Part shown: positions 50,265-64,000 of the stretch, piece by piece | Layout of the letters: each line of letters opens with the position of its first letter | How positions within the stretch are numbered: position 1 is the stretch's first letter | Assembly (NCBI GenBank): GCA_030141605.1 | Contig: JAQGDQ010000526.1 | Location: forward strand, 18,501-82,500 | Direction of reading: 5' to 3' | DNA: 64,000 nt | DNA from: Tubiluchus corallicola | Taxonomy: Eukaryota > Priapulida > Priapulimorpha > Priapulimorphida > Tubiluchidae | Notes under the pieces: model-generated | The model's input: the letters and a program-made list of their open reading frames with translations, nothing else | What the model was told of the DNA's origin: nothing | Database searches by the model: none | Program-made: the position numbers and the translations under genes

Positions 50265-50543
50265 ATGGCTACTCCACCCGAAACTACCTGCGTCATCCTC
50301 TTCAGTTCGATAGTTGCCGTAGTATCTTCTGGCAGAGGTGAGATTGAAAGTAGCATATTCCCTATCGGATCAACCCCAGAAGGAAAGGTCGATCTGCACT
50401 TGGTAGGCGTGTTTCCAATGGAGGGCGCATGGGCGGGTGGACAGGCGATTGTACCAGCTGCTGAACTTGCCTTAACCTACATCAACAACAGAAGTGATAT
50501 TTTAGACGGGTATCGACTTGTGCTACATTGGGGAAACAGCAAA
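50265..50543 (+). CDS. GABA-B-like receptor exon 1 (signal peptide, lobe 1 start)
   Basis: Residues 1-93. The start ATG is followed by a signal-like segment (CVILFSSIVAVVSS), then VDLHLVGVFPMEGAWAGGQ. It ends GGNSK-equivalent HWGNSK before gtaagt, phase 0. Confidence 0.88.
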
Positions 50544-62500: not shown

Positions 62501-64000
62501 TGCATTTTAGGCCAACTGCTGGAGGACTTTTCCTACGACAATGAAAACTACACAAACTTGATATTCAAGAATATGGCCATGACGGATTTTCTAGGCACAA
62601 AAGGACCGGTGCGTTTCGACAAAGAAGGGTCGGCTCTAAGTCCACAAAGAATAGCACAATTTCAAGGTGTGAAACAACTTAAGATACATAGCAGCACATT
62701 AACTGTTTTTTACCCTTCTTTAACAATTAATTTGCAAAACCGCCTATGTGTCGTATACAGTGTTATTAAATGTCATGTTTAATAAAGCACTAAAAATCTT
62801 CCCCTTACATAAAGCTTAAAAAATTCCCTCTTGAAATTTAGAGATAACATTACTGACTAAGAAAAATTTTAAGTTACCGTTACTTGTCTGGAAAATTAAA
62901 AATACATTTTTGGTTAGTAAGTGGTGCACCAATATGGGAAAACATTTTAAATAATTATTTCTAGTTACATACGTCTTTCTTGCAGGTAAGCGAAATGCTA
63001 AGTAATATAGATTTGCATGGAAAGTTTTTTGGGACATAATTTAACATTGCCTTTTTCTCCTGATTTACGTTGTGTGTATATGACGTCATGCAATGACGCT
63101 ATCGGAACAGTATTGCGGGAGGTTTAAAATGAAAACAAACAAAAATTTGTTTTAACGCGGATACGCTATAAAATTGCTTCAAGGTAATATAATTTTTGAC
63201 GCGATTTCTCTGAAACCTACTTCAGGTACCCCTTTCTTTGTCCTTTAAGGAACCAGTGAAAATATAACGGCATAAAACGGGTCGATTACCATATTTCAAC
63301 TGTCTGTTTTAAGCTTGCATCATGGTGGTCAATACATCCTCGGCTGTATCTACTATTAATAGTATCCATTGTGTGATGCAGGTATAGGTCTAGTCATTTA
63401 TTTTTTATTCTTTGCAACAGGTGGCGTTGTTGTACCAATTGGAATATTTGACGAGAAAGGAGAAACTATTGATGAGACGAAATTAAATAATCCATTTAAA
63501 TGGAACAGTAGGTATCAAAGTTAGCGTTGATGAGAGTTTTTTAAAACTTCAACCTTCTAATAAAGCTTTAAGCTTTAATATTTTAAGAAAAAATGAATAC
63601 ATTGTTGGCGATACGCACCTCAGCTATCTCAGATATCTTAGCATCTATCAAGATTTTTAATAAGTTTAATAAGTATACGATAATCCGAAATTCTTTGATG
63701 AAATTTTGTTAAAGCTGTCTCAGCCATTTAGTAAATCCGTCAAAAAAATCACGCAGACCGAGACGCTACGCTTACGTCCAAATAAGCAAACAATTTTTAC
63801 TTGATTTACAATATTTCTTACATAGTCACGAGTAAGAAATTTGCTTACGAATTTTGGTTATACAAAACTTTTGTGTGACAGCTTAGAGTTAAAAAGCTAA
63901 AAAGGCCAAGTGAAAATGAAAGTCATTAAGACTTGCTTATGTAAATCTTTTACTACAATAATCATGCTGCTTTCTTTTAGCATCAGGTAACAAGGTACCT
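50265..64000 (+). CDS. GABA-B-type class C GPCR, N-terminal ectodomain (3' end beyond window)
   Basis: Ten exons give about 459 residues: 50265-50543, 53016-53153, 54057-54227, 55506-55613, 55977-56042, 56827-57098 (or 57086), 60900-60979, 62511-62666, 63421-63507 and 63981-64000 onward. Every junction keeps the frame with GT-AG ends. A signal peptide (hydrophobic about residues 9-20) precedes a Venus-flytrap domain. The domain reads in family order: GVFPMEGAWAGGQ, LAAGCSPVSQATAE, SDRRRFPLLFRT, LGWKRVAILQETLEIFTT, DARIIFAGMY, RVFCEAYKQGLYGPKVVWIL, VGWFDDNWW, WAFDCVWAVSLCLNKT, GPVRFDKEGSAL. These match GABBR1/GABBR2. Receptors of this family are obligate dimers coupled to Gi/o at the cell surface. 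By my alignment W65, S130, Y250 and W278 (GBR1b numbering) are kept, but S153, H170 and E349 are V, S and F. The ligand is therefore probably not GABA bound in the usual way. The seven-helix part is not in the window. Confidence 0.92.
50599..50809. repeat. 106-bp tandem duplication
   Basis: Two copies (50599-50704, 50705-50809) beginning 'gatctgaataga' and ending in 'cagtcacacgt' or close variant. Each contains 'tttgatttttgcgcag', which resembles a splice acceptor. Confidence 0.9.
51288..52135 (+). repeat. Dispersed repeat family 1, copy C (longest)
   Basis: The fullest copy, from 'ggcacaagaaaaccctccac' to 'ggtataggcctag'. TGACGTCA lies at 51765-51772. It covers both the left part shared with copies D and E and the right part shared with copy E. 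Confidence 0.88.
52370..52925 (+). pseudogene. LINE 3' end fragment
   Basis: The frame 52444-52701 reads INYKALAPTYMSDLLKLYVP, RRALRSSSNRSNL and SYAAPKLWNSLPLQLR, the standard C-terminal tail of CR1/L2-type LINE ORF2 proteins. Upstream coding is broken by stops. The 3' end is AT-rich with 'attcaataaatgaattaaat'. Confidence 0.88.
53016..53153 (+). CDS. GABA-B-like receptor exon 2
   Basis: 46 codons, CWPGLGIHIMNKLVFSPPKK to HYWNLVQ. It contains GCSPVS, whose first Ser aligns with GBR1b S130. The donor is gtatga, phase 0. Confidence 0.92.
53154..54056 (+). other. GABA-B-like intron 2
   Basis: 0.9 kb, AT-rich, with no feature recognised; the acceptor is tcatatgcag. Confidence 0.85.
54057..54227 (+). 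CDS. GABA-B-like receptor exon 3
   Basis: 57 codons, VSPASVAPSLSDRRRFPLLF to LQETLEIFTT. The positions aligned with S153 and H170 of GBR1b are Val and Ser. The donor is the weaker GTGAAG, phase 0. Confidence 0.92.
54228..55505 (+). other. GABA-B-like intron 3
   Basis: 1.28 kb. It contains G-rich sequence at 54405-54460 and 54735-54790 resembling degraded hAT ends, and a truncated hAT relative at about 55015. The acceptor is tttttacgtag. Confidence 0.8.
55015..55260 (-). mobile_element. Truncated relative of the 48292-48887 hAT element
   Basis: Begins CAGTAGCGGTTCGTGTA, then 'cagcaccccct', 'gatattatcg' and 'attcaatataa'. These are the inverse of the right half of the 48.3 kb element, and 'ggtgtttggctgttgtgcg' corresponds to its 'cgcacagcagccaaacacca'. 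Confidence 0.8.
55506..55613 (+). CDS. GABA-B-like receptor exon 4
   Basis: 36 codons, ASEPFIKQLEDNGIALETVV and NFHPLEDPSNAIAQLL, aligning with the GBR1 [20 protein letters not shown] region. The donor is gtacgt. Confidence 0.9.
55977..56042 (+). CDS. GABA-B-like receptor exon 5
   Basis: 22 codons, KKDARIIFAGMYPRRATRVF-CE. The Tyr of GMY aligns with GBR1b Y250. The acceptor is cattttttgcag and the donor gtaagg. Confidence 0.92.
56043..56826 (+). other. GABA-B-like intron 5
   Basis: 0.78 kb, largely simple-sequence DNA: a (GA)n array flanked by direct repeats, then purine-rich sequence. The acceptor is ccttttgttcag. Confidence 0.85.
56118..56510. repeat. (GA)n array flanked by about 96-bp direct repeats
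   Basis: Direct repeats 56118-56213 and 56412-56510 share 'aatgcttctcagtaatattg' and 'aaaaagacgttataaaagaa' and are about 95% identical by eye. They bracket a GA microsatellite (56213-56357) and a second short GA run. Open frames here are artefacts. Confidence 0.93.
56827..57098 (+). CDS. GABA-B-like receptor exon 6
   Basis: AYKQGLYGPKVVWILVGWFD through NLFEEYTKHRHVYGN. The Trp of VGW aligns with GBR1b W278. Two in-phase donors exist, CAGgtatta ending at 57086 and CAGgtacag ending at 57098. They differ by four residues (YYDR) and both join exon 7 in frame. Confidence 0.88.
57817..57997. repeat. (ATAAC)n pentanucleotide microsatellite
   Basis: About 36 uninterrupted copies of ACATA/ATAAC in 181 bp, with two G substitutions at the right end. 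Open frames through it are artefacts. Confidence 0.97.
58829..59219 (-). pseudogene. Unidentified open stretch, possibly a LINE-derived tail
   Basis: About 130 codons are open on the minus strand without an ATG start: HYASIFHAVRDILQLLSPLQ, KRFTKIYLSCLRSNIAPVKH, then a Leu- and Cys-containing stretch to ICCCCN. Composition looks protein-like (regular hydrophobics, SIIGHNLQLILCK). It lies inside a receptor intron in the opposite direction, as LINE remnants often do, but I do not recognise a family. Confidence 0.3.
60900..60979 (+). CDS. GABA-B-like receptor exon 7
   Basis: One base completes the Arg codon of exon 6, then FSTWAFDCVWAVSLCLNKTA-ADLKGK. It aligns with [20 protein letters not shown] of GBR1, with Phe at the position of E349. 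It ends AAAAG before gtgaca, phase 1. Confidence 0.9.
60980..62510 (+). other. GABA-B-like intron 7
   Basis: 1.5 kb. Repeat family 1 copy D occupies 61047-61690. A pair 'cagcatccggatgcg' (62285) and 'cgcatccggatgctgcg' (62445) form short inverted repeats. The acceptor is tgcattttag. Confidence 0.85.
61047..61690 (+). repeat. Dispersed repeat family 1, copy D
   Basis: Starts 'aagcacaaggaaacactcca', only 68 bp after exon 7; TGACGTCA at 61537-61544. It shares the left part with copy C and stops after 'atataatttttaagacgat'. Confidence 0.85.
62511..62666 (+). CDS. GABA-B-like receptor exon 8
   Basis: (G)QLLEDFSYDNENYTNLIFKN, then GTKGPVRFDKEGSALSPQRI and AQFQ. It aligns with LEDFNYNNQTITDQIYRAM and GVSGHVVFDASGSR of GABBR1. 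Phase 1 at both ends; the donor is gtgtga. Confidence 0.92.
62667..63420 (+). other. GABA-B-like intron 8
   Basis: 0.75 kb, four fifths of it repeat family 1 copy E. The acceptor is tttgcaacag. Confidence 0.85.
62785..63392 (+). repeat. Dispersed repeat family 1, copy E
   Basis: From 'taaagcactaaaaatcttcc' to 'gcaggtataggtctag'; TGACGTCA at 63081-63088. It has an internal deletion relative to copy C on the left side and shares the right end with it. Confidence 0.85.
63421..63507 (+). CDS. GABA-B-like receptor exon 9
   Basis: (G)GVVVPIGIFDEKGETIDETK-LNNPFKWN(T), aligning with the IGYYDSTKDDLSWSKTDKW segment of GABBR1. The donor GTAGGT at 63508 was chosen because it alone keeps the frame into the exon starting at 63981. 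Confidence 0.88.
63508..63980 (+). other. GABA-B-like intron 9
   Basis: 0.47 kb, AT-rich, with no feature recognised; the acceptor is tttcttttag. Confidence 0.8.
63981..64000 (+). CDS. GABA-B-like receptor exon 10, cut by the window edge
   Basis: Only the first 20 bases are present: (T)SGNKVP. This extends KWN to WNTSGNKVP, resembling the KWIGGSPPAD segment that ends the Venus-flytrap domain of GABBR1. Confidence 0.7.

Follow-up and report, generated by a model that had tools for sequence, protein, structure and literature searches.

A GABA-B-like receptor gene with an altered ligand pocket in the genome of the priapulid Tubiluchus corallicola

Introduction

Genes that are named GABA-B-like by similarity alone are easily taken for GABA receptors. 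One such gene lies in a 64,000-nucleotide stretch of the genome of the priapulid Tubiluchus corallicola (hereafter the window; C137:18501-82500 in an assembly of 343.5 Mb and 2344 contigs), and the question that it raises is whether its product is a receptor for GABA, a receptor for something else, or a subunit that binds nothing. An initial annotation, made from the letters of the DNA, had described a GABA-B-type receptor with three of its GABA-contacting residues replaced, and had proposed either an orphan receptor with a different ligand or a non-binding partner subunit.

Seven residues of human GB1 contact GABA, five in lobe 1 (W65, S130, S153, H170 and E349) and two in lobe 2 (Y250 and W278), and fly GB1 keeps the residues that match them, according to excerpts of PMC12499500; the seven contacts that the initial annotation had listed agree with this source.

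Results

Structure of the receptor gene

The gene occupies positions 50265-64000 of the window on the forward strand, where ten exons join, at AG/GT borders and in agreeing phases, into a single open frame of 459 amino acids, with no stop or frameshift across them. Exon 1 (50265..50543) holds the start codon, a hydrophobic N-terminal stretch, the beginning of lobe 1 and W56, and ends at the donor GTAAGT; a possible acceptor, TTTTAG, stands just 5' of it, so that a leader exon may precede it. Lobe 1 continues in exon 2 (53016..53153), with C94, C121 and S122, while exon 3 (54057..54227) carries V145 and S162, and exon 4 (55506..55613) is flytrap sequence. Y244 and C253 are in exon 5 (55977..56042), W272 and C288 in exon 6 (56827..57098), and F346, at an E349 position that depends on the alignment, in exon 7 (60900..60979). 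Exon 8 (62511..62666) is again flytrap sequence, the flytrap ends in exon 9 (63421..63507), and exon 10 (63981..64000) is cut by the window end. Interspersed repeat copies, 72-91% alike by piece, are present in three of the introns, at about 51394-51965, 61187-61626 and 62939-63276.

The identification of these ten exons as a GABA-B Venus flytrap is upheld by the clean 459-residue frame, by the match to human GB1 in the PDB set (E=1.6e-90) and by the match to the Pfam family ANF_receptor (1e-46), both matches lying well outside what chance would give.

On contig C137 the window end is directly followed by 2303 N. The initial annotation had advised extending the locus to the right in search of the seven-helix domain, and past this gap three coding segments that match the GB1 seven-helix region were indeed found, at positions 3529-3648, 4506-4655 and 6709-6909 of locus L009 (C137 about 86.0-89.4 kb; these are scanned stretches and not exact exon borders). 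Their matches to PF00003 (Pfam 7tm_3) have E values of 0.0041, 2.7e-5 and 1.3e-7, each alone under the curated cut-off, and they are collinear on parts 113-145, 152-190 and 193-251 of the profile, which makes a class C GPCR the most likely identity of the window gene. TM1-TM3 most likely lie in the 2303-N stretch, and the linker region between flytrap and helices, where a cysteine-rich domain would sit, falls among the same N.

The ligand pocket

In a three-sequence MAFFT alignment, the contacts W65, S130, S153, H170, Y250, W278 and E349 are matched by W56, S122, V145, S162, Y244, W272 and F346 of the window protein. The Trp, Ser, Tyr and Trp that had been described as kept are thereby recovered, with 28 residues from Y244 to W272, as are the Val at S153 and the Ser at H170. 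The Phe proposed for E349 stands in part: F346 is opposite E349 in the phmmer alignment to human GB1, in the three-sequence MAFFT alignment and with a GB1-only HMM, but E349 faces a gap in three MAFFT modes once fly GB1 is added. An acid occupies the E349 place in none of these alignments, the nearest being D344, two residues upstream of F346. The claim that the alignment around the site has no gaps does not hold, given a one-residue insertion shortly before the GCS motif and, directly ahead of the E349 position, a loop of variable length.

An alternative choice of exons that would restore Ser, His or Glu is unsupported: there are no significant second copies of the receptor exons within the window (the few extra matches all have E >= 0.3), and exon 7 begins with the Phe codon. 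This codon lies within the first four bases of the exon, and read-through of the acceptor (frame at 60844) still yields Arg-Phe; therefore, an upstream extension of exon 7 would not supply Glu there.

Other positions of the flytrap show both change and constancy. G151 and S154, which adjoin S153, are both Ala in the window protein. The cysteines at GB1 positions 103, 129, 259 and 293, which are common to human GB1, fly GB1 and GB2 and which we take to form two pairs, are kept, and Cys71 is not. Y113 and Y117, presumably the lobe 1 dimer-contact tyrosines, read Asn and Phe.

In docking, the agonist is held at its acid by S130 and S153 and at its amine by a salt bridge to E349 (excerpts of PMC6429233). 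In human GB1, mutation of W65 abolishes agonist activation, agonists depend critically on Y250 and W278, S130A abolishes the binding of one antagonist, and changes of S153 differ in their effect between ligands (excerpts of PMC7411975). On the mutagenesis and docking, the residues kept in the window protein thus make up the core of the site, and those changed belong to its amine end and to part of its acid end.

Relationship to GB1 and GB2

The best solved relatives of the window protein in the PDB set are human GB1 (307 bits) and fly GB1 (298-299), followed by human GB2 (181) and fly GB2 (169). As yardsticks, fly and human GB1 score 515 bits against each other, human GB2 and human GB1 234, and human GB2 and fly GB2 300, so the window protein is on the GB1 side, and is more distant than the fly-human orthologue pair. 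No relatives were confirmed among 26 pattern matches in viral and 13 in bacterial/archaeal collections.

With GABBR1 of human and Drosophila the window protein shares the flytrap, the four common cysteines, W65, S130, Y250 and W278, at 39-40% identity. It differs in that S153, H170, E349, G151 and S154 are altered, and in that the gene stands outside the GB1 clade, which has a member of its own in the Tubiluchus corallicola genome; having four of the seven GABA contacts and lying outside the human and fly GB1 group, it did not qualify as a GABBR1 orthologue. Its likeness to GABBR2 consists of the alignment-dependent Phe at the E349 place and of the absence of Ser and His at S153 and H170, but it retains W65, S130 and Y250 and has only 28-29% identity to that subunit; orthology to GABBR2 was likewise rejected, the protein being closer to GB1 and having several GB1 ligand residues. 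The window gene is most likely a GABA-B-like class C GPCR that is a paralogue, not an orthologue, of GABBR1.

The GB1 member of this genome is at 915-918 kb of contig C1809. It keeps S153, H170, Y250, W278 and E349, which are all five of the contacts readable there, the W65 and S130 exons being outside the sequence examined. It is 59% identical to human GB1 (149/252) and 41% to the window protein (74/179), and in the tree it clusters with its human and fly counterparts at a UFBoot of 100; judged by its sequence, this gene is the GB1 orthologue. In the same tree (21 rows, LG+G4, with 8 of 25 grouped loci dropped for having fewer than 140 columns), the window gene groups with C2308 and C623a/b, a group separated from the other rows at 84, among other deep nodes that are weak, down to 20. 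A further locus, C1080, looks GB2-like from its best match, human GB2 at an E of 8e-18 against 7e-11 for human GB1, although its identities are close, at 39% to human GB2 (66/170), 40% to fly GB1 (55/139) and 28% to the window protein (36/130).

The GABA-B-like family of the genome

A search of the genome with the window flytrap gave at least 99 matches, among them the exons of the window gene itself; the search scores the best candidates only, and its counts are lower bounds. Pocket residues were read in 27 loci, most of them covered in part only, namely the window gene, 25 grouped loci and a fragment at C137:275; matches on C1690, C1925 (64 kb), C1874, C1451, C2085 and C1060 were left out of this reading. 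With the window gene counted, W65 is Trp in seven of the eight loci read, S130 is Ser in all nine, and W278 is Trp in 17 of 22. Y250 is Tyr in 16 of 22 loci, a count affected by probable intron read-through in C1472, C1866, C759 and the top hits of C623a and C1080; after the first three were dropped and other hits were taken for C623a (Tyr, weak) and C1080 (Asn), it becomes 15 of 19.

The remaining contacts are seldom kept. S153 is Ser in three of 22 loci, H170 is His in one of 23 and E349 is Glu in one of 17, the window gene being part of each count; one weak match has Asp at E349. The sole locus read with both His170 and Glu349 is the GB1 orthologue. The window gene is not peculiar in this respect: the GABA-B-like loci of this genome have, as a rule, lost His170 and Glu349, so names given by similarity may mislead about the ligand. 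The number of loci may include alleles or assembly copies, given that C759 contains one exon in inverted copies and that C560 is nearly identical to C1915.

The fragment at C137:275 (L044 275-1829) is at the contig start, about 68 kb upstream of the window gene; it keeps W278 and perhaps has Asp at the E349 place, in a weak match. Two other GABA-B-like loci, L043 (C1911) and L062-L063 (C1209), have Trp at H170 and Tyr at the E349 place, with Glu one residue before the latter. None of L045, L047, L048 and L049 matched the window protein at an E of 1e-3.

Several paralogues have the altered pocket. C2308 and C1813, which are 53% (207/388) and 42% (147/347) identical to the window protein, respectively, carry the same seven residues, W, S, V, S, Y, W and F. 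The pocket of C623a reads W, S, V, A, Y, W, Y and that of C623b W, S, I, A, Y, F, Y; in C1809b, the four readable positions are W at W65, V at S153, A at H170 and Y at Y250. C137, C2308 and C1813 are identical in 112 of 334 columns. All three depart from a residue common to human and fly GB1 in 49 columns, and in 18 of these they are identical, including V145 and S162; the G151 place next to V145 is Ala, Ser and Ser, respectively. Anchoring on matches to the window protein biases these paralogue alignments toward agreement, and as evidence of selection the conservation of the altered pocket is no more than suggestive.

Discussion

Our results indicate that the window gene probably encodes a GABA-B-like receptor of a lineage-expanded family, one that binds a ligand and is tuned to something other than GABA. 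A small ligand would be bound between the two lobes by the aromatic clamp W56/W272 and by the acid-end contacts S122/Y244, all of them kept. The amine end would have been refitted, with Ser, which is small and non-basic, in place of His170, an aromatic or deleted position in place of Glu349, and a changed Ser153 loop; therefore, GABA should not be held in the usual way. We infer that the ligand is probably another acidic small molecule, given that Ser122, Tyr244 and the two Trp would be suited by an acid that does not need an amine held by Glu. Signalling would take place through the seven-helix domain as a dimer, with a putative partner. The same genome keeps a GB1 with the usual GABA-binding residues, so the window receptor probably senses a different small molecule. 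Between the two readings of the initial annotation, that of a different ligand fits the sequence, with a separate GB1 orthologue and the window gene outside the GB1 clade, but that of a non-binding partner is less likely, given that W65, S130 and Y250 are kept.

Such a partner subunit would act as GB2 does, in the trafficking or coupling of another subunit, and we consider it unlikely here. At E349, S153, H170 and G151 the window protein has Phe, Val, Ser and Ala and human GB2 has Phe, Thr, Val and Ala, a likeness that at E349 turns into a gap in both proteins when fly GB1 is added. Yet W65, S130 and Y250, present in the window protein, are lost in human GB2, the window protein is closer to GB1 than to GB2, and the genome has a separate GB2-like locus at C1080. 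According to excerpts of PMC7411975, GB2 retains no ligand residue of GB1, although our alignment does show Trp at W278 in human GB2.

It is also rather improbable that the receptor still senses GABA or a close analogue such as taurine, with the amine held by D344 or by the Trp rings. D344, two residues before F346, could reach the amine if the loop is shortened, and two acid-end contacts are retained together with the aromatic ones. The H170A mutation of human GB1 only reduces activation (excerpts of PMC7411975), so GABA might still act weakly, which goes against our main reading; taurine has been proposed as a ligand of cnidarian GABABR-type receptors (excerpts of PMC12225738). However, E349, H170 and S153 are all changed in the window protein, and all three are kept in the GB1 orthologue of the same genome. 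That the gene is decaying or an assembly artefact, its pocket having drifted free of function, seems very improbable in spite of the assembly gap right after the window and the repeats in the introns, given ten exons free of stop or frameshift, the presence of seven-helix segments, and an altered pocket whose seven residues are common to two paralogues, which argues against decay.

Large GABA-B-like expansions are already published, with 37 such receptors in Trichoplax, 16 in Stylophora and 29 in Saccoglossus, and in Trichoplax the expansion stands beside one GB1 orthologue, as it does here (compared by the description in excerpts of PMC10133484). A GABABR-like receptor of Clytia and Pocillopora, a relative of GABABR and not a one-to-one orthologue, belongs to a family described as expanded in cnidarians, with a ligand that is perhaps not GABA and with taurine proposed (compared by description only, excerpts of PMC12225738). 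Expansion and altered ligands having both been put forward before, the window gene is one further member. Among the best matches in the open-licence literature, no paper was found whose excerpted text lists these pocket residues for the members of such a family.

More tentatively, C137, C2308, C1813, C623a/b and perhaps C1809b may form a subfamily of GABA-B-derived receptors for a non-amine acidic messenger or environmental cue, sharing the aromatic clamp, part of the acid end, Val or Ile at 153, Ser or Ala at 170 and Phe or Tyr at 349. With the altered pocket common to several paralogues, there is a concrete panel on which the missing ligand can be sought.

Other features of the window

No RNA families or tRNAs were found in the window. 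Near the many-exon receptor gene there are two long uninterrupted frames, both seemingly intronless: a CWF19L1-like frame at 3664-5283 on the reverse strand (CwfJ_C_1, CwfJ_C_2), and a TRIP4-like frame at 10540-12078 on the forward strand (TRI4_N, zf-C2HC5, TRIP4_3rd, ASCH). The first part of an MGAT2 gene lies at 18019-18645 (forward strand), and at 20844-21439, also on the forward strand, a 198-nt unit occurs three times in tandem, 97% alike, inside one open frame of 242 residues.
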